From positions 1-41,834 of IMG/VR virus record IMGVR_UViG_3300034073_004613: a stretch of DNA of 41,834 bases; one strand, given 5' to 3'. The first letter of the stretch is position 1. The number at the start of each line of letters is the position of its first letter. Positions 1,032 through 40,840 of this stretch are shown here, in pieces. Under the pieces are notes generated by a model. That model did no database searches and was not told the origin of the DNA. It saw nothing but the letters and a program-made list of their open reading frames with translations. A program made the position numbers and the translations under genes. This stretch comes from a virus.

Positions 1032-1682
1032 CTACTTAATTGGACAGTGATTTGCGCTGTAAATATATTTCCAATTTCTTTTAATATTCACACCTATTTT
1101 TTCAGCGGTTGTTATTATATCCTCTAAACATTCAGAATCAGAACCACCAACAATAATAACTTCTTTTCCTTTCATACTTAGAAGAAGTTTATATAGTTTT
1201 ATAGGAACATGAAACCACCTATGATTATTTCCTATGTAAACAATTAATGTTCCTTCTTTTGTTTCAAAACATTCTCCCTTTTGAAGTGTTCCGTCTAATT
1301 CTTTGCTTTTGATTAGTTTGTAGGTTTTCTCATCCAAAATACCCTTATTACCATCACTATTTTTCATTTTTGTATTATAGAAGTCAGAATCAACATCATA
1401 GTTGTATCTCTTTTCAATTAAATCCTTTTGATTTGGAAAATGATATAAGTCATCGTGTATTGGTATCTCTGGATTTTCATCATATAAGTATTGTTTGTCT
1501 ACATCTTTGCCATCAACATGATTATCAAATATTTGATAGACATGTTGAAAAGTCTCACAGTATTTTTTCAATTCATTCAAATACATTTCTGAAAAGTACT
1601 TTCTAAAGGATTTCTGAACATCAACTACAATAAGAGTATCTCCTATCTGTTCAAAGTCTTCATATAGTTTAAGGTATCTCAT
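1032..1682 (-). CDS. Isochorismatase/nicotinamidase-like cysteine hydrolase with N-terminal capsid-targeting-like tag
   Basis: 216 aa. After a 10-residue leader MRYLKLYEDF, the protein shows the isochorismatase-like fold signatures. They are D21 in a V-V-D-V-Q-x-x-F strand, K91 in E-K-R-Y-x-Y-x-V-x-S-D-F, and C185 in V-G-G-S-D-S-E-C-L-E-D. Asp-Lys-Cys is the known catalytic triad of this superfamily, so the enzyme is probably active. Members hydrolyse isochorismate, nicotinamide, N-carbamoyl compounds or similar amides; the substrate is not predictable here. The leader matches the tag shared by other proteins in this window and is absent from ordinary cellular isochorismatases, so packaging into the capsid is inferred. 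A TTAATATATAA box ends only three bases before the ATG. The 3' end abuts the amidoligase-like gene. Confidence 0.7.
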   Translation of the reverse strand: MRYLKLYEDFEQIGDTLIVVDVQKSFRKYFSEMYLNELKKYCETFQHVYQIFDNHVDGKDVDKQYLYDENPEIPIHDDLYHFPNQKDLIEKRYNYDVDSDFYNTKMKNSDGNKGILDEKTYKLIKSKELDGTLQKGECFETKEGTLIVYIGNNHRWFHVPIKLYKLLLSMKGKEVIIVGGSDSECLEDIITTAEKIGVNIKRNWKYIYSANHCPIK

Positions 1683-3755: not shown

Positions 3756-5890
3756 ATGTTTTTACCAAACCAATCAATGTTTCTTGAGTTTGGATTTTTC
3801 CTTTGATTCTGTTTTCTCAATCTTAATACTTGTCCATAATCTAGTGATTCAACATGATCCATCTGATTAAGACAATTATTTACGTAACTTACAAAGTCTT
3901 TTGGTAAAAATTTATTAAACCACTCTTCCACCATCTCTTTATATTCATATTTTTGAATAATTGAAGTCATGTTGACTACGGTCATTACGGTGTCATCATG
4001 TCCAACATCGGCAGCATATCTTATGTTACCAGAGGATGTTATGTGTTTAACAAATGTGGTTATCTCTCTTATGTTCTCTTCATTTGTTATTATAATGCTT
4101 TTTGATTGTAGAAGACCTTGATAATCTTTGACTAACAGGTTTTTATTTTCCCCTACTTTAAGACCCATTTTTTCCTCGGTTGAGTCAATTCTGTGTTTGT
4201 ATCTAACAAACACAGAGGAACCATAGTTGTTTCTTCCTTCAAAAACATGTGGTAGTTCAGCAAAAAGAGCATTTCCATAGTTGTTTAACTCGACAACGAC
4301 TTTTACATTTTCAGGATTTAGATATTCAAATACTATCATATAAAGTAATTCAGCAAGCTGTTTAACCGAAACCAAATTACTTCTGTAAATGCCTATCTGT
4401 TCTAATCTAAAGAAATCAACTATAGAAGTATATGATAATTTTTGAATTTCTATTAATTCAGTTGGTTTTGGAGAAATCTTAAAAATGTTTATAACAGAGT
4501 AATCTTGACCTAATCCCTCGGATATATCGACCGAAATAACTACTTTGTAATCTTTTCTCCTAAGAGGTATGAATATCTCATCATCATCAATCCATTTTAA
4601 TTCGTTATAACTGAACTTAAGTCTTGAATCAAATTCTGGTATTTCTTCAAATAAAAAATTCTTTTTACCCTTTAATAATTCATCAATTATTGACTCACTT
4701 AATAATGATTTACTTGAATTGATAAATCTTAATCCATATTCTTGATTAAAGGCATCTTCTCCTCCTATATCTTTAATTGCTTCTTCTTTCCAAGTGGTCG
4801 TCTCCGCAATCATTCTTATAGGAACCTCATGTCCTTTTTTGTCAATGAATGTCATAGATTTAACCTCTTCATCCGAACACATCTCATTATTATAAACATA
4901 GATTATATCTTTTTGTATATCAATATTGTATATCATCTCAACTTTTGTTTTACCTTCCCATCTTTCTTTCATCAGTTGTAGAATGTCTTCTTTTGTTACT
5001 CCATGTTCATATAATTTATGATTATTTAATCTTATGTAAGTTAGGAATCTACCTGGTACTTGATACCAGTATACCCTCATTGGTTTATAGTTATTTTTTT
5101 GAGGATCACCATCAGGCCTTTCAGCATCGGTTAGTAATCTATGAAATAAATTCATACCATTTGGGGTTGATGTGATAATAATCTTAGAGTTTTGAACAGC
5201 TGATACAGTCGGAAATGCTGCCGTATAGTATGGTTCTATGATATTAGATGGGATGTGTGCAAACTCATCTAAATAAAGAACATCAATGGTAAAACCAATT
5301 GCTGGTGTTTTAGTTCTTGCTGATGTTTTTATTCTACATCCATTTTCAAATGTTAACGACTTTTGATTCCAGGTTTTTATACCAGGTTTGAGAAAGAAAG
5401 GAAGTAGTGAGTAGATTGACTTTATTTTATCTACAATTTCTATTGCTGTATCACCCTTATTTGCTACAATCATTATGTTCTTATCATTGTTAAATAAGAT
5501 GGTATGTAACATGAAAATTGATGATGATATAGTTTTACCAACCTGTCTTGACGCCATCAAGATATTAAATCTACTATTCATAAAATTATCAAGTATCTGT
5601 TTCTGATACTCTCTTAGTTTGATATTATTAATAGATCCATCTTCTGTTTTAACTTTACAATACTTCTCTGTGAAATAATGAACATCAAGTGCACATCTAA
5701 CATATTCTTGTTGTTCATCTGGTGTCATTTTAAATGTAACACCTGATCTTCTTAGACCGACTTCACTTTTTAGCCAAGGATTTTGAAATTTCTTTACAAC
5801 AACACCATCATTTATCTTGTCTGTTGCCTCATCTACTAATTTAGTAGTGAAAATCATTTGTTTTTCTATGGGTTGTTTACCAAAGGACAT
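3752..5890 (-). CDS. terL: Terminase large subunit (T4 gp17-type ATPase-nuclease)
   Basis: 712 aa. This is the motor that packages DNA into proheads and cuts the concatemer. The ATPase domain shows Walker A S-R-Q-V-G-K-T (residues 114-120), Walker B V-L-Y-L-D-E-F (204-210) and the coupling motif T-S-T-P-N-G (240-245). The RNase H-like nuclease domain shows acidic residues at D454 (I-S-V-D-I-S-E-G), E533 (V-V-V-E-L-N-N-Y-G-N) and D627 with D631/D632 (A-A-D-V-G-H-D-D). All key residues are present, so the enzyme should be active. The length is slightly above T4 gp17 (610 aa). The gene runs opposite to the possible small subunit and converges on clpS. Confidence 0.96.
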   Translation of the reverse strand: MSFGKQPIEKQMIFTTKLVDEATDKINDGVVVKKFQNPWLKSEVGLRRSGVTFKMTPDEQQEYVRCALDVHYFTEKYCKVKTEDGSINNIKLREYQKQILDNFMNSRFNILMASRQVGKTISSSIFMLHTILFNNDKNIMIVANKGDTAIEIVDKIKSIYSLLPFFLKPGIKTWNQKSLTFENGCRIKTSARTKTPAIGFTIDVLYLDEFAHIPSNIIEPYYTAAFPTVSAVQNSKIIITSTPNGMNLFHRLLTDAERPDGDPQKNNYKPMRVYWYQVPGRFLTYIRLNNHKLYEHGVTKEDILQLMKERWEGKTKVEMIYNIDIQKDIIYVYNNEMCSDEEVKSMTFIDKKGHEVPIRMIAETTTWKEEAIKDIGGEDAFNQEYGLRFINSSKSLLSESIIDELLKGKKNFLFEEIPEFDSRLKFSYNELKWIDDDEIFIPLRRKDYKVVISVDISEGLGQDYSVINIFKISPKPTELIEIQKLSYTSIVDFFRLEQIGIYRSNLVSVKQLAELLYMIVFEYLNPENVKVVVELNNYGNALFAELPHVFEGRNNYGSSVFVRYKHRIDSTEEKMGLKVGENKNLLVKDYQGLLQSKSIIITNEENIREITTFVKHITSSGNIRYAADVGHDDTVMTVVNMTSIIQKYEYKEMVEEWFNKFLPKDFVSYVNNCLNQMDHVESLDYGQVLRLRKQNQRKNPNSRNIDWFGKNI

Positions 5891-12897: not shown

Positions 12898-13452
12898 ATG
12901 AAACATTTACTAACTTTTGGTCTTTTTTTAGAAAAGGTGGATATTAAAGATACTGATCCAGCTCATATTAGACTTGCTAAAGACAAATTAAATTCAACTG
13001 AAGATTATTTGACTCAATACCCTAATTTAAAGGCAAAGATAGATAGTATCTATAAAGCTAATAAAGATAAACCTGAGTCAGAGGTTTATAAACAAGTTTT
13101 GGATTCTTTGGGTAAAGATGCTAAGTTAAGAAATCCCTTCGCTGTAACTTATGCTGAAGTAGCAAAATTAGAAATAGAAATTAAAAAAATGACAGATAGT
13201 ATTTTAGTTGATGATACTGGAATGAAATTATCTTCTCAAAATCTTTCATTGGCAACTTCTGAAGATACTAAGAAAAAAATGCAAACAGATTTGATTCAAA
13301 TGAAGAAAAATCTTGATACAAAAAAGAAAAAACTCGAAGATAGTTTAAAACAAGTAGATAAGTCAAAGCAGCAAGTAAATACTGAAATCACGAAAACACA
13401 GAAAGAAATTGCTGAGGCTTCTAAAAAATTAGCCGAAAAGGAGAAAAAATAG
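12898..13452 (+). CDS. Tagged lysine-rich coiled-coil protein, candidate internal/scaffold protein
   Basis: 184 aa. It starts MKHLLTFGLFLEK, a clear copy of the shared tag with F7 and F10 and an F-L-E stretch. The rest is helical and polar; residues about 95-184 form one long lysine-rich coiled coil ending A-E-K-E-K-K. The start lies one base after the stop of the 1042-aa gene, so the two are co-transcribed and probably coupled. T4 core and internal proteins are likewise small, basic and helical with a removable leader, which is the basis for the role proposed. No enzymatic motif is present. Confidence 0.65.
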   Translation: MKHLLTFGLFLEKVDIKDTDPAHIRLAKDKLNSTEDYLTQYPNLKAKIDSIYKANKDKPESEVYKQVLDSLGKDAKLRNPFAVTYAEVAKLEIEIKKMTDSILVDDTGMKLSSQNLSLATSEDTKKKMQTDLIQMKKNLDTKKKKLEDSLKQVDKSKQQVNTEITKTQKEIAEASKKLAEKEKK

Positions 13453-17552: not shown

Positions 17553-19259
17553 ATGAATTTTGAGATTTTTAAAAGTCCAGATCCTTCAGGAAGGTTATCA
17601 AAAGAATCTTTTATTTCTAATAATTATCCAGAAGAATATATTTATATTATAGACTTTTGTAGTAAAAATGGAATGAATGATTTACCATTCAAAGAAAAAG
17701 TTTATTTAAGTGTTAATAAAATTAACAGATTACCAGTTTGTAAAAATCCTAATTGTAGTAGTTTGGTTTCTTTTAGAAATTCTACATTGGGTTATCGAGA
17801 ATATTGTTCTACTAAATGTTTGAGCTCGGATCCGGATATTAAAAAAATAAAACAACAAAAATCTATACAAAAGTATGGCACAAACACACCCGCTCAATCT
17901 CAGGTTATCAAAAATAAAATTATTAAAACTAATTTAGAGAAATGGGGAGCTAATTCACCAATGTGTGATGATGGCGTTCGAAAAAAATCTAAAGAAACTC
18001 TAATTAAAAATTGGGGAGTTGACAATCCTTCAAAATCTGAAGAACTTATTGAAAAAAGAATTGAATCTTTTAAACTAAGTGATTTCAAACAAAACTTCAA
18101 AAAAACATCTATTGAGAAATATGGAGTAGAACATCCTTGGATGAATGAAGATATACACAATAAAACAATCGATTTCTTTTATCAAAACTATAGACAAAGA
18201 ATTGAATCAAAGATAGATGGTGATTATAAGTTTGTCGGATTTGCCAAAGGAACGTCTACCTATTTAAACTTCTATTGTAAAAAGTGCGAATCAGATTTTG
18301 ATATACTGACTTATCAGTTTTACTATCGAATTAATTCTAAGATAAGTATATGTACAAAGTGTTTCCCTATTTCTGAAAGTTCATCAGTATCTCAAATTGA
18401 ACTTTATAATTTTATTAAAGAGAATTATGATGGTGAAATACTTTTAAATACTAAAGATTTTATTAATCCTTATGAGATAGACATTTATTTGCCCGAACTT
18501 AATATAGGATTTGAATTTAATGGTGTTTGGTGGCACAGTAATAAATTCAAAAAACAGAATTATCATCAAAGTAAAATACAAATAGCTGAAGATAAAGGAA
18601 TAAAACTAGTAATGATTTGGGAAGATGATTGGCAAATTAAAAGAGAAATTTGTAAATCTTTTATTTTAAATAAATTAGGAAAAACAAAAAGTAGAATTTT
18701 CGCAAGAAAATGTTTAATACAAGAAGTCAATTATATGGAATCAAAAAAGTTCTTAGATGAGAACCATTTACAGGGAGATTGTAAGTCATCTATTAGAATT
18801 GGATTATTCTTCAATGATGAGATTGTTAGTCTAATGACTTTTTCAAAACTTAGATTACCTCTTCAAAGATTTGAAAAAAATAGAAATAGAAAAGATCATT
18901 TTGAATTAACAAGATTCTGTAATAGAATTGATAGTAATGTAATTGGGGGAGCTTCTAAAATGATTAAATATTTTATAGAAAAGAATAATCCAAAACAAAT
19001 AGAAACCTATTCTGATAATTTAATATCCTCTGGTCACTTATATGAGAAAATAGGATTCGAATATACACATACATCAAACCCTGGATATTGGTATGTTGTA
19101 AATGGAATAAGACAGCATAGGTTTAACTGGCGAAAACAAAAGTTAATTAAAATGGGACATGATCCAAGTAAATCAGAGGAGGAGATTATGAATGAATTAG
19201 GATATTGGAGAATATATAATGCTGGTAATAAAAAGTGGATACTAAATCTCGAAAAATAA
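17553..19259 (+). CDS. Free-standing homing endonuclease (VSR-like EDxHD type)
   Basis: 568 aa, modular. Residues 60-95 hold a cysteine-rich zinc finger (C-K-N-P-N-C ... Y-C-S-T-K-C). Residues 105-215 carry four DNA-binding repeats of the form K-Y-G-x-x-x-P / N-W-G-V-D-N-P, as in nuclease-associated modular domains. A C-x-x-C pair precedes the catalytic core at about 295-365: Y-E-I-D-I-Y-L-P-E-L, then F-E-F-N-G-V-W-W-H-S, then a lysine helix and M-I-W-E-D-D-W. This is the very-short-patch-repair-like fold used by I-Bth0305I-type homing enzymes. The C-terminal 190 residues look like a GNAT-type fold. It is inserted between the tail sheath and the gp26-like gene, flanked by its own promoter, and interrupts the structural block. 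A selfish element is the best reading. Confidence 0.87.
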   Translation: MNFEIFKSPDPSGRLSKESFISNNYPEEYIYIIDFCSKNGMNDLPFKEKVYLSVNKINRLPVCKNPNCSSLVSFRNSTLGYREYCSTKCLSSDPDIKKIKQQKSIQKYGTNTPAQSQVIKNKIIKTNLEKWGANSPMCDDGVRKKSKETLIKNWGVDNPSKSEELIEKRIESFKLSDFKQNFKKTSIEKYGVEHPWMNEDIHNKTIDFFYQNYRQRIESKIDGDYKFVGFAKGTSTYLNFYCKKCESDFDILTYQFYYRINSKISICTKCFPISESSSVSQIELYNFIKENYDGEILLNTKDFINPYEIDIYLPELNIGFEFNGVWWHSNKFKKQNYHQSKIQIAEDKGIKLVMIWEDDWQIKREICKSFILNKLGKTKSRIFARKCLIQEVNYMESKKFLDENHLQGDCKSSIRIGLFFNDEIVSLMTFSKLRLPLQRFEKNRNRKDHFELTRFCNRIDSNVIGGASKMIKYFIEKNNPKQIETYSDNLISSGHLYEKIGFEYTHTSNPGYWYVVNGIRQHRFNWRKQKLIKMGHDPSKSEEEIMNELGYWRIYNAGNKKWILNLEK

Positions 19260-21320: not shown

Positions 21321-21656
21321 ATGAACTGTAACTATAGGTATTGTGGTAAAGATATAAGATATGGTAGACCAGATCGTAGATTTTGTAATAAAGACTGTAA
21401 ATCTAAAGAAAAGTCTATAATTAAAGAGTTAAAAGCGCTTAATAGAAAATCTAAAAAGAGTAGAGATTTTATACAAAAATCAAGAAAGAAACATAAAAAT
21501 AGATATAACTATGATTTAGTATTGTATGAAAATTGCAGAACTAAAGTTAAAATAATTTGTCCAGTGCATGGTGTCTTTGAACAAACACCAGACGCTCATC
21601 TTTATTCAGGTAGAGGTTGTGAAAAATGTGCCAGAGAGGCAAGAAGAAAAGATTAA
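21321..21656 (+). CDS. Small zinc-finger / DUF723-type protein
   Basis: 111 aa. The N-terminal 30 residues hold a four-cysteine finger (C-x-x-x-x-C-G-K-D ... F-C-N-K-D-C). A basic helix follows. The C-terminal 55 residues show N-R-Y-N-Y-D-L-V-L-Y, K-V-K-I-I-C-P-V-H-G-V-F-E-Q and G-C-E-K-C-A-R, the pattern of DUF723-type zinc modules that often accompany phage homing nucleases. No nuclease core is present, so it may be a remnant or a stand-alone DNA-binding protein. It lies 34 bases ahead of the gp47-like gene on the same strand. Confidence 0.65.
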   Translation: MNCNYRYCGKDIRYGRPDRRFCNKDCKSKEKSIIKELKALNRKSKKSRDFIQKSRKKHKNRYNYDLVLYENCRTKVKIICPVHGVFEQTPDAHLYSGRGCEKCAREARRKD

Positions 21657-21690: not shown

Positions 21691-22830
21691 ATGAGTAAAA
21701 TTTACATGATCGGAGATAGTCACATTGGACTTGGATTTCCAAATAGCGTAGATAAATGGTTTAAAGTTCATAAAGAGTATTTTAGTGAATTTTTGATACC
21801 TTTATTAAAAAGAGAAGTTAAATCGGGTGATATAATTGTTCATTTGGGTGATTTGTTCGACAATAGAAATGTGATTCCTATCAATTTACTTAACTATGGA
21901 ATGGATATTGTAGAAGAAATATCTAAAATTGCACCATTTCATATTATAGTTGGTAATCATGATCTTTGGTCTAAAAGTGCAAGTGAAGTTAATAGTATTC
22001 GTCCATTCAAATGGATTCCAAATGTTTTTGTACATGATACTGTTACAAAGATAGATTATAATGGTTTGAAACTTTTATTGATGCCTTATGTTGAGAAGAG
22101 AGTCGAACAGATTAAATGGATACAAGATAATAGAGATTGTCACTATCTTTTTTGCCACTCTGATTTAAATGGTGCTAAAATGCATTTAACATCTGTTGCT
22201 CATAAAAATCCTGATAAAATTGATGTCGAGGAGTTTTCAGCATTTAAAAAGGTTTACAGTGGTCATATTCACATTGTCTCTGATAACAGTCAGAAAAACT
22301 TCAAATTTGTTGGTTCCATTTTTCAAATGGATAGAAATGACACCGGAGACCAAAAAGGTATTTTTGTTTTAGATACTGATACCGGTGAAGAAACATTCTT
22401 CCCAAATAAGATATCTCCTATTTTTAAGAAATTTAGAGTTGTTAAAGAAGAAGATGTGGATAGATTAGATGAGATAAAAGATACCAAAGACTATGTTGAC
22501 TTACAAATTTCTAATAATCTTTTAATTAGTAACAGAAAGCTTCGTAGAAAACTTGAAGTGATGTTAGAAAAAGGTAACTTTGCCTCTGTTGAATATATTG
22601 ATGATATTACAAAAGAGTTAGTTGATGGTGAAGAAGTGAATGAATCTTCAACAGTCGAAGTTGATGAGAATGGAATTGAAATCTCAGTTCAATTAGAATA
22701 TGAAGACTATATAAAAGAGTATATTCTTAAACAGAAATACGACAATGATAAATTTAAATCAGGTGTTATTTCTGAATTTGATGAAGTGATAAAAATTTAC
22801 ACTGACAATTACAAGTCTTCAACAGATTAA
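21691..22830 (+). CDS. SbcD/Mre11-type recombination nuclease subunit (T4 gp47-like)
   Basis: 379 aa. All metallophosphoesterase motifs are present: G-D-S-H (8-11), G-D-L-F-D (53-57), G-N-H-D (88-91), C-H-S-D with H156, and G-H-I-H (191-194). Together they bind two metal ions. T4 gp47 pairs with the gp46 ATPase to resect DNA ends for recombination-dependent replication and host DNA breakdown. The C-terminal 130 residues are acidic and helical, as in gp47 homologues, where they contact gp46. No gp46 gene lies in this window. The final four bases overlap the stop of the convergent P-loop gene. Confidence 0.9.
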   Translation: MSKIYMIGDSHIGLGFPNSVDKWFKVHKEYFSEFLIPLLKREVKSGDIIVHLGDLFDNRNVIPINLLNYGMDIVEEISKIAPFHIIVGNHDLWSKSASEVNSIRPFKWIPNVFVHDTVTKIDYNGLKLLLMPYVEKRVEQIKWIQDNRDCHYLFCHSDLNGAKMHLTSVAHKNPDKIDVEEFSAFKKVYSGHIHIVSDNSQKNFKFVGSIFQMDRNDTGDQKGIFVLDTDTGEETFFPNKISPIFKKFRVVKEEDVDRLDEIKDTKDYVDLQISNNLLISNRKLRRKLEVMLEKGNFASVEYIDDITKELVDGEEVNESSTVEVDENGIEISVQLEYEDYIKEYILKQKYDNDKFKSGVISEFDEVIKIYTDNYKSSTD

Positions 22831-23768
22831 AATTTCAATTCACTCACATCTTTTGCTCTACCTGTAGAAGGATCTCTTGAATTAATAATTTTATTCGGAT
22901 TGATTCCTGGTCTAGTTGTTAGATAAAAACCATTTTCTAATTCTCCCTTTACACCTAGTAGATTTAGTATTTCTTTAGGACTATTGTGCTTTGAACTAAT
23001 CAACATTTGCTCAACATTTTCAGCCGTATACATCTTATTATCTAAATCCGGTTTGTCTGTAGCTTGAAACCATCTGCAATACTGATACATTCCAGAATCC
23101 TCATTATTAACATCTATTCGTTCGGATTTATTTTCACTATTTACTCTACTATCAATATTTTTCAGATACCAATCTAATGGTGTGAATATTAGATAATCTT
23201 CGATATTACCAAACACTTTGAATTCTTTTATTCCTGTATCTACATCATCAAATACTATCGTTTTGGCTTTCGAAAAGTAAGCAACCCATGCCATTCCAAA
23301 TCTTCTACCATCATGGCCATCTTTTTGTTTGCTTTTTGCTTTTGGATCTGGATCAGTTAAATATCCTATATGTGGTCTTATTTCTTCATATTTCTTTTTT
23401 TCCTCATCAGAAGCAATTTCTTGCCATTTTTTGAAATCGTCTTTGTAGATTTCTATCAACCAAGGATTATCTTTAAAGCTATTAGCAGAAAGTTTGGCTA
23501 ATTCAGGCAAACCATTTTCTGATATCATCTCCATTAATTTTTGAAAAATTAAATCGTTGCCTTGAAAATTATCTGTACCTGTTAAGACCTTATCTGCCTC
23601 TGGATTTTGATACCAATGGACAATTTTAGTTGGCGCTAAACTTTTTGAATCGGTTGCTAAATAAGTTTTACCAGAAGCGCTTGGTCCAGATAGCAAAATA
23701 AACTTTTTACCTTCAACTCCTTCTTTTAGTAGTTTAATAAAACTTTCGTATAACTTTAAGTATTTCAT
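22827..23768 (-). CDS. Tagged P-loop NTPase
   Basis: 313 aa. The first 12 residues, MKYLKLYESFIK, are the clearest copy of the shared tag; L-Y-E-S could be a protease site. A Walker A motif follows at once (L-S-G-P-S-A-S-G-K-T, residues 26-35), and a Walker B-like strand T-I-V-F-D-D-V-D is at 170-177. The spacing of the motifs and lack of AAA+ second-region features suggest a small-molecule or nucleotide kinase-like or zeta-toxin-like P-loop fold, but I cannot name the substrate. An AT box (23792-23802) stands 23 bases before the ATG, giving the gene its own promoter at the end of the tagged island. It converges on the gp47-like gene with a four-base overlap. Confidence 0.72.
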   Translation of the reverse strand: MKYLKLYESFIKLLKEGVEGKKFILLSGPSASGKTYLATDSKSLAPTKIVHWYQNPEADKVLTGTDNFQGNDLIFQKLMEMISENGLPELAKLSANSFKDNPWLIEIYKDDFKKWQEIASDEEKKKYEEIRPHIGYLTDPDPKAKSKQKDGHDGRRFGMAWVAYFSKAKTIVFDDVDTGIKEFKVFGNIEDYLIFTPLDWYLKNIDSRVNSENKSERIDVNNEDSGMYQYCRWFQATDKPDLDNKMYTAENVEQMLISSKHNSPKEILNLLGVKGELENGFYLTTRPGINPNKIINSRDPSTGRAKDVSELKF

Positions 23769-23837: not shown

Positions 23838-24557
23838 CTAACTTATTACTTCGATTCCTTCCTGGCCGAAGACGAAGACTTCTCGACCCCTGAAGATGAT
23901 AGCAGTGTCTTCCGAGATGCCCAATCCTATCTTCCCAGAAGTAAGACCGACTGCTATCTTCAGGCGAGAGATTCTACCTCTTTCTCTAAAATGAGTGTCT
24001 ACTACGATGTCTGGCAACATAGATAGACCCTTTTTCATGAGGGGTATACTTTTGCCACCTGCTATCATCTCTCCGGATAGGGCCATAGCACCAGCAGAAG
24101 TACCTACCACAGCCATTCCTTCTGAAAATCGTTGCTTCATTCTACTCAGGAAGGAAGTTCCCAGGTAACATTCAGTTATTCTCGATTGATCTCCTCCCAC
24201 GAAGAAAATTGTATCAGCAACATCTAGCTTTTTCAAGTTCTCTTCGGTGTCAACCTCGGAGGCAGTTGAAGTGTGTAGAAAAGTTGTGATGCATCCCAAT
24301 CGGTTAAAAATAGGGAGGTATTTTCTTTCAGCATCTTCTTTGTGGGCAGTGGCTGTAGTCACGACCAAAAGATTAGCAGAACCCAGTCCATTGATAACAA
24401 GCTCTAAGCACTTCTCGGATTCAGATCCACCCACTAGAGCAAATGTCTGACCATTTCTCAAGTACGGTGCGATCATGTCTTCGTACTTCAGGTTGAAGCT
24501 CTCCACCAACCAGTCACCAAAGTTTTTAATAAGCATTCTTGAGGTCTTTCTTTTCAT
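23838..24557 (-). CDS. Cyanophycinase-like peptidase (S51 family), compositionally foreign
   Basis: 239 aa. The S51 signatures are complete: L-V-G-G-S-E-S-E-K (residues 41-49), F-F-V-G-G-D-Q (118-124), the nucleophile elbow G-T-S-A-G-A (152-157, serine 154), and D-T-H-F-R-E-R-G-R (187-195). Later, G-L-G-I-S-E-D-T-A matches the conserved G-x-G-I-x-E-x-T-A. S51 serine peptidases cleave cyanophycin or aspartyl dipeptides. By eye the gene is near 50% G+C, while neighbours are near 25-30%, which points to recent transfer. An alternative start at 24536 (M8) would give M-L-I-K-N-F-G-D-W-L-V-E-S, which again has an aromatic-x-x-aromatic leader followed by V-E. The protein may therefore be tagged, though less clearly than its neighbours. 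Confidence 0.88.
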   Translation of the reverse strand: MKRKTSRMLIKNFGDWLVESFNLKYEDMIAPYLRNGQTFALVGGSESEKCLELVINGLGSANLLVVTTATAHKEDAERKYLPIFNRLGCITTFLHTSTASEVDTEENLKKLDVADTIFFVGGDQSRITECYLGTSFLSRMKQRFSEGMAVVGTSAGAMALSGEMIAGGKSIPLMKKGLSMLPDIVVDTHFRERGRISRLKIAVGLTSGKIGLGISEDTAIIFRGREVFVFGQEGIEVIS

Positions 24558-24580
24558 GTTCTATATCGTACCTTTTGTGT

Positions 24581-24619
24581 CTAAAACCTGATTGTGTCAA
24601 ATAGTTTTAAGTACCTCAT
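24581..24619 (-). pseudogene. 12-codon orphan tag ORF (remnant of a tagged gene)
   Basis: On the minus strand an ATG overlaps the stop of the cupin-like gene as ATGA, the usual coupled-start arrangement. It reads MRYLKLFDTIRF before TAG. MRYLKLFD is the same tag as on the hydrolase at 1682 (MRYLKLYED). The S51 peptidase begins 23 bases after this stop, in another frame. The simplest reading is that a tagged gene, or a tagged version of the peptidase, was broken when the GC-rich peptidase arrived. A functional mini-leader is the alternative. Confidence 0.6.
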
Positions 24620-24876
24620 AACTTCTGTAATTTTATTTTCAAATCACCGGTTCCTTTTATTAGTCTATGATAAATACCCATTGGTATAAAAACTTCTCCC
24701 CTTATTTGTTTAGGTAATTCATTATCAATTTGAATCATCCAATCTGTTTCACCGATAGATTCAATTATACGATTTTCAAAATCTCGATGCCACATAAATT
24801 CACCAGAATCTGTATCTTGTTTGAACTCTCTGATAAATGTATTATCACTTAATTTAGTTTCTTTAAATGGTAACAT
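24616..24876 (-). CDS. Small cupin-like phage protein
   Basis: 86 aa. The pattern F-M-W-H-R-D-F-E-N-R-I-I-E-S-I, D-W-M-I-Q-I-D-N-E-L-P and V-F-I-P-M-G-I-Y-H-R-L-I-K-G matches a short beta-barrel, cupin-like protein often found in marine T4-type phages. The two histidines (H30 in W-H-R-D and the later Y-H-R) are placed like cupin metal ligands. The reaction is unknown. It has no tag, unlike most of the island. It starts four bases after the metallopeptidase stop, and its own stop overlaps the orphan tag ORF, so it is part of the minus-strand operon. Confidence 0.65.
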   Translation of the reverse strand: MLPFKETKLSDNTFIREFKQDTDSGEFMWHRDFENRIIESIGETDWMIQIDNELPKQIRGEVFIPMGIYHRLIKGTGDLKIKLQKL

Positions 24877-24880
24877 ATTT

Positions 24881-25669
24881 TTATTTATTATATAAACCTA
24901 GATAGTATTTTAATTTCTGAGGAAATTCCGTTCCCGCTGCTTTTATCTTTTGATACAATTCATCAGACATATCTTTATGTCTTTTACGAAACTCATCAGG
25001 AGACATAAACCATAAATATAAATTCAATTTTTCTTTGGATCTTTCTACCATGTCTATTTCACGAAGTTTTTTCAAATCCATTTTGGTTTCTCCTGGGTAT
25101 TTTTTTGAGTATAAATAAGCGAATTGTTTTGCATGAGAATCTACTTCCTTTTTTGATGCTAAGTATGAATATCCTTCATCTTCACCTGATTTAAATCCTT
25201 CTTTTTCTATATTTGCAATATGTTGAACCTCATGTTGTAAACTCGATTTTAGGGCATCTACTGGATAATTAAATAATTTAGTAGTTCCTATTTCAATGCC
25301 TTCGGTTCTTATAGGATCATTTTTTGATTTTATTGCAGCTCCTTCACTCTTTGGTATCAAACGTATAAAGAAATCTTTTTGCAGAGATTTAAATGATTTC
25401 TTAATAATTGGATCAATCTGGTCAAAATCAGTTAATAAAGTAGCTGGCTCTGATGATAATCTTATATTTTGATAAGGTTTATAATGTTTTTTTATAAACT
25501 CACTTATACTTAAATTTCCTGGATTTTTTTGATAATAAATTGAAATTTGAGACTTGAAATCTAAAAGCACATCTCTAAGGAATTTATAAATCAATTTTAT
25601 AGATTTATTTTCATCTTCACTTAAATATTCAGCATTTTCGAATAGACTGTATGTTTTTAGATACTTCAT
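24881..25669 (-). CDS. Tagged zinc metallopeptidase (HExxH)
   Basis: 262 aa from the ATG at 25669. A longer frame to 25717 would overlap the upstream gene and hide the tag, so I reject it. The leader MKYLKTYSLFENAE is a clear tag with an L-F-E stretch. At 146-150 is H-E-V-Q-H, preceded by S-L-Q. It is followed at 169-180 by Y-L-A-S-K-K-E-V-D-S-H-A, placing E175 as the likely third zinc ligand of a gluzincin-type peptidase. The N-terminal 130 residues are helical. If packaged, it could act on the prohead, on host proteins after entry, or on the cell envelope; none is proven. The spacing to the upstream gene is 14 bases. Confidence 0.72.
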   Translation of the reverse strand: MKYLKTYSLFENAEYLSEDENKSIKLIYKFLRDVLLDFKSQISIYYQKNPGNLSISEFIKKHYKPYQNIRLSSEPATLLTDFDQIDPIIKKSFKSLQKDFFIRLIPKSEGAAIKSKNDPIRTEGIEIGTTKLFNYPVDALKSSLQHEVQHIANIEKEGFKSGEDEGYSYLASKKEVDSHAKQFAYLYSKKYPGETKMDLKKLREIDMVERSKEKLNLYLWFMSPDEFRKRHKDMSDELYQKIKAAGTEFPQKLKYYLGLYNK

Positions 25670-25683
25670 AACCAATTTATTTT

Positions 25684-26643
25684 TTACCAGAATCCCGGAT
25701 AAGTTTTTCCGCCCCACAAATGTCCATATTTATTTATGCGACATGCCCAGTATCCAGCCTTTGTCTTATCCTTCTTTGTAGAACATTTATGACGAGCAGC
25801 AAATGACTTTCTTGCCTTAGGATTGCTCACCTTAGCAGTTAATCCACCGTGAACATCACCAAAAGAAATCTTTTTAACCTTACCAGTTTTAGGATTCTTT
25901 ACATAAACTTGATATTTTTTAGTACCACCACGCATTGGATAATTTAACTTAACTTTTTTACCCTTATATTCCGCCTCATTTACTTCTTCTATATTTTCCA
26001 TAGGTAAATCCAAAGGAACCTTTTTCCCATTAAAATAACCAAAGTTACCTATCTCGGTCTCTCTGTATAATGATTCATCAATACTACAAAGTTTTATTTT
26101 ACCAGAATCATATAATCTTCTAGCTTCTGTTAAAACATTAAAGAAAGATTTTGAACCAGGTCTAAAAATACTTTCTGTTATTGGTTTGTTGTTGGTTAAG
26201 TGCCATTTTAAGTTCTCCGATACTTCAGGCATTGAGACAAATTGAACTTGTAAGTCACCACACTGACAGTCATCACATCCACAATCACACTCAGAGTCTC
26301 CTGTGCAATCATCACAACAACCACATCCTTCACCTTCTTCATATTCTGATTCAAATTCATCATCATCATCATCATCTTCATATTCACCGATTTCAAATTC
26401 GTTTTCACATTCCATATTTTCAACATTATCAATATTGATGGTTATGAATGATTCAAATTTTTCAACTTTATTTTTCTTAAGATTATTTAATTCTTTTTCA
26501 TCGTGTTCAACAGGTTCAGTTTTGATACCTAATCCCATGATTTCTTCTTTCTCATTTTCTAAAGATTTAGCTGAGAATCCAAAGTCTTCTTCTTTAACTT
26601 TTTTTTCTTTCTTCTTTTCGTTGAATTTTCTGAGATGTTTCAT
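25684..26643 (-). CDS. Tagged acidic/Cys-rich protein with DUF5872-like C-terminal domain
   Basis: 319 aa, at least four parts. It starts MKHLRKFNEKKKEKK, a tag copy with F7 but lacking the second aromatic. Residues about 85-130 are an acidic run (D-D-D-D-D-D) followed by a dense cysteine cluster (G-C-G-C-C-D-D-C, then C-D-C-G-C-D-D-C-Q-C) likely to bind metal. Residues about 150-225 form a small domain with N-F-G-Y-F-N-G-K-K-V-P-L-D. The C-terminal about 95 residues (R-K-S-F-A-A-R-H-K-C ... G-Y-W-A-C-R) resemble DUF5872, a small basic module of T4-like phages. Its function is not known to me. Its stop is two bases... 14 bases before the metallopeptidase start, and it begins two bases after the AAA+ gene ends. 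Confidence 0.65.
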   Translation of the reverse strand: MKHLRKFNEKKKEKKVKEEDFGFSAKSLENEKEEIMGLGIKTEPVEHDEKELNNLKKNKVEKFESFITINIDNVENMECENEFEIGEYEDDDDDDEFESEYEEGEGCGCCDDCTGDSECDCGCDDCQCGDLQVQFVSMPEVSENLKWHLTNNKPITESIFRPGSKSFFNVLTEARRLYDSGKIKLCSIDESLYRETEIGNFGYFNGKKVPLDLPMENIEEVNEAEYKGKKVKLNYPMRGGTKKYQVYVKNPKTGKVKKISFGDVHGGLTAKVSNPKARKSFAARHKCSTKKDKTKAGYWACRINKYGHLWGGKTYPGFW

Positions 26644-26645
26644 AG

Positions 26646-28004
26646 TTATTTTTTAGTTTTTATAAGATATTTCTTTATAAGTAGTTTCCAAACAGGTTCT
26701 TCTCTATCACCAATTCTCATTATTTCTTCGTTTCCAGCTCTTAAGTTTATTGAGTGAATTAGAGTTCTGATGTTGAGGTCAAATTTCACCGGATAGTTAT
26801 CAGTAACATAAATTAGGTATTCTAAAGCTTCTTCTTTTAGTTTCATATCTAATTCTGGTGATATTCTTGACATAATCTCTTTCATTCTTGAAATGATTTC
26901 TTCTTTGTTAAGATTTACATCAACATGTAGAGACCTAGAAAGAATTGCGTCATCGAATTTCTCTTCTGCTAAATTAGAAATGAAAATCACCTGACCTGAA
27001 AATTCGAATCTGTTAGGTAACATTCTTCCCTCTTTTTCTTCATATTCTTGTTGAATTTCTAAATCACTCATACCTGTTGAGTCAAAAGTGTTACCTTTTG
27101 TCAGTTTAGATAGTTCTCTTACTGGATAAGTATCTAAAGCTCCTTTAAGTAAGTTTACTGAATCGGCATCTTTTAGAACAGCATCACAATCATCAAAGAT
27201 GATTAACTTATTTCTGTGTTTGAATAGGACTTCAAATAGACCAGCTGTTGTAATGGTGCCTGTTGATTTATAATAGTGAACATCTGGTTGCATTCCAATA
27301 GATCTTAGCGTGTCTGTTACAACTGAAGTTTTACCAACACCCGCTTGTCCACTTACAATTAGAGAATTACTTTTACCTCTTGCAACTTGTATTGTGTATA
27401 ATTCAATAGCTTTGAAAATATCAATTTTAAGATCTTGAACAGTTATTTTATCTGATTCTTTTTCAGCCTTGTCTGTGGTTGCAACAATTGCTCTTAGTTG
27501 TTCAATTCTTCTTTCAATTTTTTCAACGCTAGTTGGAGACTTTGCTCTTTTTCTTTTCTTTTCCCACTCTTGGAGCTCTTCTTTTGGATCATAAGTTTCT
27601 TGTAGTTCTGTTTCTTCTACCTTTTGAATCATTGATTCCGGATTATTGAAGAAGTCTACTACAAAAGGTAAATGTTTAACAATTGATTCATCTTTAGGTA
27701 TAAAGAGAGTAAATTCTGGATTCTTCTCAAATTCAAAATTCAACCATAAATCTATTGAATGTATTACATTTCTAATGTCATCTTCTTTCCAATTTATTCT
27801 AATGGCCTTTGTTGTTTTAAGAGAAATAAATAATTGACCTCTTAGAAAGTCCATTCCTTTTTGAATAAAGAATATTTCGTTATATGGATATAAATCATTT
27901 CCAGTCTTTCTTTCGATAAATTCTGTTATTTTTTGTATAGCATCTTCTTTATCCTTGGATAGAAATGCCTCTAAAAATAGTTCGTATTTTTTTAAGATTT
28001 TCAT
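26646..28004 (-). CDS. Tagged AAA+ ATPase
   Basis: 452 aa. The leader MKILKKYELFLEA is a clear tag with Y7, F10 and an F-L-E/A site. Residues 20-125 form an N-terminal alpha/beta domain; 130-185 are charged helix. The AAA+ core shows Walker A G-Q-A-G-V-G-K-T (219-226), Walker B K-L-I-I-F-D-D-C-D (266-274), sensor-1 asparagine in F-I-S-N (344) and a probable arginine finger in I-L-S-R-S (357). A helical lid follows to the end. The class cannot be fixed; it resembles phage AAA+ proteins of unknown role. It is the first gene of the minus-strand island, with an AT box 6 bases before its ATG. Confidence 0.85.
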   Translation of the reverse strand: MKILKKYELFLEAFLSKDKEDAIQKITEFIERKTGNDLYPYNEIFFIQKGMDFLRGQLFISLKTTKAIRINWKEDDIRNVIHSIDLWLNFEFEKNPEFTLFIPKDESIVKHLPFVVDFFNNPESMIQKVEETELQETYDPKEELQEWEKKRKRAKSPTSVEKIERRIEQLRAIVATTDKAEKESDKITVQDLKIDIFKAIELYTIQVARGKSNSLIVSGQAGVGKTSVVTDTLRSIGMQPDVHYYKSTGTITTAGLFEVLFKHRNKLIIFDDCDAVLKDADSVNLLKGALDTYPVRELSKLTKGNTFDSTGMSDLEIQQEYEEKEGRMLPNRFEFSGQVIFISNLAEEKFDDAILSRSLHVDVNLNKEEIISRMKEIMSRISPELDMKLKEEALEYLIYVTDNYPVKFDLNIRTLIHSINLRAGNEEIMRIGDREEPVWKLLIKKYLIKTKK

Positions 28005-40065: not shown

Positions 40066-40527
40066 ATGAAACTAACTAAGATTATTAAACATTATTTGTT
40101 GGGTAAATCCGTAAAAGAAATGGAAATGAATAGAATTTTAGAAAAAATATCAAGCAAAAAGAAGTTAAGTGACAGAGAGAAAAATTTCTTAGAACTTTAT
40201 CAATCAACTCGTGATGAAGATTTAAAGGATTATGTTTATCTTTCTAAAAACTCTACTTTTTCTAAAGTAAGTCAATTACTTGAGAATGAAAAGAAGGTTA
40301 TATGTGATTTGTGTGATAAAAACGGTAAAATTGGTCTACAAATTATTTCAATAGAAAATCAATTCGAAACCGAAAAGTGTATTTTAACATTCAAAAACAA
40401 AGAAACACATTTCTTACATGATAAGTTTCTTTATAATTTAATTTACAATGTTAAAAAAGACGAGTATTCACTTCAAGAGCAAGATGAATATTTCGAAAAA
40501 ATAACAACCAAAAGTGATGAAGATTAA
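40066..40527 (+). CDS. Hypothetical charged protein with C-x-x-C
   Basis: 153 aa, basic N-terminal helix (M-K-L-T-K-I-I-K-H-Y-L-L-G-K) then a helical charged half, then a beta-rich half from about residue 75. It has one C-D-L-C pair near residue 83 that might bind a metal only if dimeric. No family recognised. The leader looks partly like the shared tag but lacks the aromatic spacing, so I do not count it. The next gene starts 11 bases before this one ends. Confidence 0.62.
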   Translation: MKLTKIIKHYLLGKSVKEMEMNRILEKISSKKKLSDREKNFLELYQSTRDEDLKDYVYLSKNSTFSKVSQLLENEKKVICDLCDKNGKIGLQIISIENQFETEKCILTFKNKETHFLHDKFLYNLIYNVKKDEYSLQEQDEYFEKITTKSDED

Positions 40528-40840
40528 AAGATTCGGAGAGTTTAATGAAGCTATTTCTGGAACTGAACTAGTAGGTAATATATCTATGGGTCCTGCTTAT
40601 GGTGAAACTAGATTGCAGAATAAAACGGTTGGTAAAAGACATACAACTGCTGAATATTCAAAAGATTTGAATAATCCTGATTCTGGTAATACACTTACTA
40701 GTGATATTTTCTTTGATGATCAATATTCGGATATCTATAATCAATATCTTAAGAGTGGTGGTTCACAATCTGAACTTACGGATGATAGAGGTTTAAATAT
40801 GAAAATTATGATGGATTTTTTACGAACATCCAATAGTTAA
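40517..40840 (+). CDS. Small tagged protein
   Basis: 107 aa from the ATG at 40517; a GTG directly before it is in frame but unlikely as the start. The leader MKIKRFGEFNEA is a tag copy with F6 and F9 (one residue shorter) and a possible F-N-E/A cleavage site. The rest is polar and looks partly disordered (G-N-I-S-M-G-P-A-Y-G-E-T-R, then D-I-F-F-D-D-Q-Y-S-D-I). It overlaps the upstream gene by 11 bases. Its small size and tag fit a packaged internal protein. Confidence 0.6.
   Translation: MKIKRFGEFNEAISGTELVGNISMGPAYGETRLQNKTVGKRHTTAEYSKDLNNPDSGNTLTSDIFFDDQYSDIYNQYLKSGGSQSELTDDRGLNMKIMMDFLRTSNS

Follow-up and report, generated by a model that had tools for sequence, protein, structure and literature searches.

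An orphan N-terminal tag between a cupin-like gene and an S51 peptidase gene: a probable relic of a tagged gene in a huge-phage fragment

Why should a reading frame of only 12 codons, resembling the N-terminal tag of other genes in the same DNA, stand alone between a small cupin-like gene and the gene of an S51 peptidase? The window analysed here, a whole virus record of 41,834 bases, in all likelihood represents part of a huge-phage genome: its terminase shares 76% identity with the terminases of LR745206 (634,780 bases) and LR756502 (642,428 bases). The orphan lies on the minus strand, where codons 24619-24584 read MRYLKLFDTIRF and are followed by the stop TAG at 24583-24581. Its ATG (24619-24617) overlaps the TGA of the cupin gene (24618-24616) to form an ATGA at 24616-24619, an overlap that recurs in relatives, and 23 bases separate its stop from ATG 24557 of the S51 reading frame, which is offset by 2. 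Position, overlap, 23-base gap and frame offset had all been given in an earlier note on this DNA and agree with the sequence. The peptidase start which that note placed at 24557 holds in part: the frame is open there, but the likely start is the in-frame ATG 24536, which widens the gap to 44 bases.

The orphan and the cupin junction in relatives

A tag profile derived from LR756502 gives the first eight residues of the orphan a score of 16.8; on a 10-residue profile the orphan scores 10.3, and the four standard tags of the window reach 15.3 to 26.3. Reading frames of fewer than 45 codons at a score of 16.8 number three in LR756502 against 0, 0, 2, 1 and 0 in five simulated genomes. With zero to two short frames per 642 kb scoring at least that high in simulations, chance resemblance to a tag has something to be said for it, and the score alone is not decisive. 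The orphan begins, however, on the exact base, and with the same overlap, at which a tagged gene starts in 17 of the 80 cupin relatives; for this reason we regard it as a real tag, and the likelihood of a chance match as next to negligible.

The untagged anchor gene (24616-24876, minus strand, 86 codons) has no Pfam match. Five models of its fold were predicted with pLDDT values of 47.5-88.8, and cupins are numerous among the best PDB matches of the predicted model (E about 2e-4 to 1e-3, TM about 0.6-0.7), so that the description of this neighbour as cupin-like is borne out by a predicted fold matching solved cupins. Its relatives were examined in the best 80 of 102 viral-contig stretches. In the 17 loci in which the cupin stop and the ATG of a tagged gene overlap as ATGA (L017, L023, L031, L035, L036, L038, L041, L045, L046, L047, L049-L053, L074 and L080), the tag is strict in 15 and looser in two, L023 (MKYKYLKRFNES) and L074 (MIKNWLQFNE); the strict pattern, M[KR].[LIVM]..[FY], was run on 12 of the 17, the other five being judged from their gene starts. 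In seven further loci (L029, L060-L064, L079) a tagged gene starts 8 to 39 bases after the cupin gene. Once L031, L038, L049, L050 and L052 had been left out as near copies, the 12 representatives of the 17 loci fell into eight body families, and into 11 when L029, L060 and L079 were added, a family being defined by the lack of BLASTP cross-hits at 1e-2 after removal of 15 residues, a test that distant kinship may escape. The gene upstream of the cupin gene is also tagged, and variable, in nine of the 11 junctions compared. The earlier proposal of a standard tag with exchangeable bodies behind it thus finds its counterpart in eight unrelated families at the cupin-ATGA junction, and the search that it suggested for another tagged gene at the same place succeeded in these 17 loci. 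As side observations, the named isolates immuto and Melnitz (L270, L271) carry cupin relatives at 46% and 38%, which lie among genes whose starts, such as MKKFSEIIEA or MKKSELVKLIKEEL, do not resemble the huge-phage tag.

Junctions that seem to have lost most of a tagged gene occur elsewhere. In L149 a cupin relative (80.5%) is followed, through the same ATGA, by a tag that ends after 21 codons and then by a gene on the opposite strand; the tail of this second orphan differs from that of the window. In L017 a reading frame of 47 codons joins the first 30 residues of an L036-type protein to 17 residues that, apart from one change, correspond to its end, which appears to be an internal deletion of a tagged gene. 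Among 45 sequence-distinct cupin junctions (matches less than 300 bases from a locus end dropped, identical 34-base stretches merged, by a pattern that missed the tags of L023 and L064), an ATGA tag is present in 11, with L023 counted by eye, and two of the 11 are orphans. A wider scan yielded 66 distinct KL-ATGA tags (89 matches merged by their first 45 residues), 62 of them in closed reading frames, of which 56 have at least 80 codons and two, in L149 and L183, fewer than 45. With only these two of 62, orphan tags as a frequent general class were not established.

The same counts bear on the idea that the 12 codons are a functional mini-gene, either a leader or a device that carries ribosomes over from the stop of the cupin gene to the start of the peptidase. 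The ATGA overlap would permit re-initiation and the spacer is short; yet a second 12-codon tag reading frame was found at none of the 45 distinct junctions, the opposite-strand gene behind the L149 orphan makes coupling impossible as a role there, and 56 of the 62 closed KL-ATGA tags head genes of full size, all of which makes such a function improbable. No close relative of the window phage, in which the same 12 codons might have been sought, was found. That tag and peptidase are really one intact fusion, split in the record by an assembly or base-call error, is a still poorer explanation and in our judgement very improbable. It draws on the fact that a single contig carries the junction, which in its exact form was found in no other viral contig. 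The tag frame, however, ends at its own TAG and the peptidase frame is closed by a TAG at 24563-24561, two codons before ATG 24557, and therefore no single small insertion or deletion could join the two; moreover, the GC content changes at the peptidase and not at the tag stop. For the same reason, and because the peptidase probably has a tag of its own (see below), the suggestion that a tagged fusion was broken by a small indel in the phage has to be given up.

The reading that we prefer, with a probability of about 0.64, is that a tagged gene formerly stood behind the cupin gene and that the orphan is what remains of it, the scar of a replacement or deletion, the tag itself being a putative capsid-targeting propeptide. 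The leftover tag of the earlier note fits in here, with full tagged genes at the same junction in relatives and a second orphan in L149. The spacer behind the orphan (24537-24580, minus strand) holds no recognisable body; another of its frames reads GFRHKRYDIEHEKKDLKNAY, with a stop that overlaps the peptidase start at 24536. A trace of the lost body was not found there when the spacer was compared with the fetched loci (best tblastn E 0.98 for its reading frames, short blastn 0.13 for its DNA). The L041 body, examined as a source of the spacer, looked suggestive in a hand comparison and was supported by no search.

The place at which similarity between junctions ends was followed through 45 pairs from 10 junctions (L017 and L053 dropped, L149 added). 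Pairwise DNA identity is 0.71-0.78 over the last 75 nucleotides of the cupin gene, 0.69 over nucleotides 1-15 of the tags (0.61 without the ATG, which is common by choice), 0.43 over nucleotides 16-30 and 0.31 in the next stretch, against a background of 0.29; a separate set of 52 pairs from 10 relatives, with homologous-body pairs dropped, gives the same picture. Randomly paired tagged genes of LR756502, as a control, give 0.71, 0.63 without the ATG, 0.52 for nucleotides 16-30, and 0.31. Any two tags are thus as alike as those of the junctions, and the border of exchange may therefore be the cupin end or lie inside the tag; a border shown to be inside the tag was not borne out by this control, which also indicates that tags offer similar DNA stretches throughout such a genome.

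The S51 peptidase and the variable island

The peptidase gene (23838-24536, minus strand, in a frame open from ATG 24557) matches PF03575 at 2.7e-17 with 63.6 bits, against a curated cut-off of 23.9, and its nearest PDB relatives are cyanophycinases (7uqv, 2.5e-29, with homology from residue 40). The eighth residue of the open frame is the methionine of ATG 24536, where the protein likely starts (MLIKNFGDWLVES...). A short tag (MLIKNFGDWLVES, 24498-24536, minus strand) probably occupies this start, as judged from a short-tag regex and from a step in GC content. The regex, written after the peptidase start had been seen, matches 12 of 924 gene starts in LR756502 against one of 3209 internal methionines, and on the standard profile the MLIKNF start scores -24.2. 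From 24536 onward the first 21 nucleotides have a GC content of 0.24 and the next 39 of 0.51, as would be seen if the tag were directly followed by the foreign body. The gene as a whole, at 0.44, has the highest GC content of the 36 genes listed for the window, and its GC3 is 0.44 against 0.17-0.23 in four others; the body therefore looks foreign, as had been proposed. The peptidase body is the one of the S51/cyanophycinase family, in front of which the window protein has about 30 extra N-terminal residues that begin like a tag. Most of 24 listed Bacteroidota S51 proteins begin near G-[TIV]-L-I-P-[IV]-G-G without such an extension, their starts being taken as the first ATG, so that some of them have longer in-frame starts.

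A bacterial source was sought in two genome scans; the first found nothing, and the second returned 38 S51 loci, labelled Bacteroidota in the tree. Plasmid cyanophycinases are 32-39% identical to the peptidase in 10 listed of 26 rows. Among viruses, a single-sequence search found no direct relatives of the peptidase, a PF03575 search matched one of 40 records (the window excluded), and an alignment search found three contigs, L220-L222, which are identical over 8.5 kb and represent one phage. In this phage an in-frame, GTG-started VIYLEKYLDF stands directly before the MSKGILIPIGG of the S51 protein. The in-frame tag-peptidase fusion that was to be looked for in relatives does exist, then, but in a different neighbourhood and not behind the cupin gene. 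By eye, the same frame ahead of this tag (L220, about 3842-3886) reads NKYLK, like a second tag that lost its ATG.

The arrangement in this phage suggests a more specific origin of the scar, in which the orphan once tagged a previous S51 gene at this very place, whose body was replaced by a GC-rich relative that brought or acquired a short tag of its own and so displaced the older one. Behind S51 in L220-L222 stands a relative (51-55%) of the next tagged gene of the window, a P-loop-like protein (22827-23768, minus strand; MKYLKLYESF, with GPSASGKT and a weak Pfam AAA match, E 0.07), and the S51 gene there has a GC content of 0.28 as compared with 0.44 in the window, both of which are consistent with such a succession. 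Against it, the gene upstream of S51 in L220-L222 is not a cupin gene, the three elements cupin, tag and S51 occur together in no relative seen, and in the S51 tree the window copy sits on a very long branch whose placement the tree does not settle. We hold this succession to be rather unlikely; as a special case of the scar reading, it overlaps with it in probability.

The junction lies within an island whose content turns over between the window phage, LR756502 and LR745206. Its left border is a gene at 21691-22830 (plus strand), which from its sequence we take to be metallophosphoesterase-like and which is conserved in both LR756502 and LR745206; its right border is a tagged AAA ATPase-like gene (MKILKKYELFLEA; phrog_1250; 26646-28004, minus strand), kept in LR756502. 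Between these borders two different genes stand in LR756502, their starts, MKHLKRFSELNE and MRIRRFNENMKSD, being tags or tag-like; LR745206 has more tagged genes close to its left border gene. In a tblastn search of the whole of LR756502, the five island proteins of the window had no match at 1e-3, the border gene being matched as a positive control. Upstream of the cupin gene the island holds a tagged gene (MKYLKTYSLFENA; 24881-25669, minus strand) recognised by its profile score, with an HEVQH motif suggestive of a metallopeptidase role and no Pfam match, and then a gene with a tag-like start (MKHLRKFNEK; phrog_7595; 25684-26643, minus strand) that ends in TYPGFW. The gene upstream of the cupin gene in L041 ends in TYPGYW, and genes of this type (ending TYPG[FY]W), which also stand upstream of the cupin gene in L041 and L045, may be a second anchor. 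The stretch RKNLSGILV, out of frame, stands ahead of tagged genes both in the window and in L045.

Elsewhere in the window, the profile score identifies tagged genes at 1032-1682 (minus strand; MRYLKLYEDF) and 12898-13452 (plus strand; MKHLLTFGLFLEK), and a gene at 40517-40840 (plus strand; MKIKRFGEFNEA) carries by eye a short-type tag that scores -10.1 on the standard profile. Three further genes drew attention. The 111-codon gene at 21321-21656, with a relative of 218 codons in L089 and a DUF723 match just under the cut-off, is possibly truncated; the tagged protein at 1745-2374 contains a long Q-, E-, K- and G-rich repeat, and its relatives match only its first 92 residues; the 568-codon DUF7487 protein at 17553-19259, possibly a mobile endonuclease, is matched in the 50-kb stretch of LR756504 and in neither of those of LR745206 and LR756502.

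The tag across a huge-phage genome

The tag, with the profile consensus M[KR][HY][LI]K.[YF]..F, is carried by 147-150 of 818 LR756502 genes of at least 80 codons, depending on which of two slightly different scores is used. A simple tag regex matches 94 of 924 gene starts (genes of at least 60 codons) in this genome against two of 3209 internal methionines. The 150 tagged genes belong to 118 body families by BLASTP, and they cluster, with 72 adjacent pairs as against 27.2 expected (sd 4.4). Positions 2 and 3 of the tag vary as K/R and H/Y, a variation that looks like conservation at the protein level. Short tags at a score of at least 12 number 15 in LR756502 versus 2-8 in simulations, and the reversed genome contains 10 tags, whatever their length. 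Among the remaining fetched loci a raw count gives 345 distinct tags at that score, 29 of them of fewer than 30 codons and some strong.

Possible function and meaning of the tag

The likeliest function of the tag, by analogy, would be that of a T4-like capsid-targeting propeptide. In T4 the internal proteins IPI, IPII and IPIII (and Alt) share a capsid-targeting sequence, a short N-terminal tag joined, as here, to accessory proteins that have nothing else in common; the T4 ip hotspot, like the cupin junction, holds unrelated tagged genes at one place in relatives; and both T4 and the huge phages related to the window have a head protease in the genome, the head maturation protease phrog_207 being encoded in LR756502 and LR745206 (5e-22 and 5e-27). 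PF03420 was matched in seven of eight records, always below its curated cut-off. The T4 head protease cleaves at a hydrophobic-x-E site. A motif of this kind, [LIVF]xE[ASGN] within residues 8-22, is present in 45 of 150 tagged genes versus 63 of 668 untagged ones (16.1 in shuffles, sd 3.7), with the E mostly at residue 11; at 30% of the tagged genes this is an enrichment and not a proof, and the orphan is without such a site. The likeness to T4 is one of form and not of family: the T4 N-termini, MKTYQEFIAEA in ipIII and MKTFKEF in ipI, score -4.8 and -2.0 on the 10-residue huge-phage tag profile. The systems differ further in that about 150 tagged genes with another tag consensus stand in LR756502 against the handful of T4, in the untagged cupin anchor with its ATGA overlap, and in the orphan tags left behind; packaging, moreover, is here a prediction. 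In the giant phages SPN3US and phiKZ, head proteins with N-terminal propeptides are cut by a protease like T4 gp21 (PMC7411985, PMC5694885); there, several propeptides exceed 100 residues and a few head proteins carry them, as compared with tags of 10-15 residues on many varied proteins here.

A tag that is real and modular could also serve another purpose, as a translation-enhancing start or as an address for an intracellular phage compartment. The negative scores of the T4 tags on the profile leave room for such a purpose; on the other side stand the head maturation protease, the enriched cleavage-like site with its preference for residue 11, and the protein-like variation of positions 2 and 3. 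We consider a purpose outside the capsid possible but doubtful; it concerns only the function of the tag and overlaps with the odds given for the origin of the orphan.

If the orphan is indeed a relic of a tagged gene and the tag a capsid-targeting propeptide, recombination over short shared stretches, either the cupin end or the tag itself, would replace the bodies, and in the window a replacement or deletion would have been joined imprecisely, leaving the old tag as a scar. The tag would carry varied accessory proteins into the head, where the head protease would remove it, and the bodies would enter the host along with the DNA. The broader proposal, put forward tentatively and as somewhat less probable than not, is that some 150 proteins per huge phage of this group may bear an exchangeable capsid-targeting tag, that recombination at the tag may swap effectors, including host-derived enzymes, and that orphans may be the scars of failed or imprecise swaps. 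Cassette-like evolution of this kind is already known in principle from the T4 internal proteins, with one tag and unrelated bodies; new here, as far as we have seen, are the large scale, a tag unlike that of T4, the cupin gene as anchor, and orphan tags. No description of such a tag in these phages was found in the open-licence literature, which is weak evidence of absence, and a literature search by the letters of the tag gave nothing relevant among the matches listed. Should the tag be a capsid address, the sequence alone would list the proteins that are probably injected early, about 18% of LR756502 genes, and orphan tags would be fossils of body exchange through which its unit and border become testable; if some 150 proteins are truly targeted to the capsid, such phages would inject a very large arsenal into their hosts.
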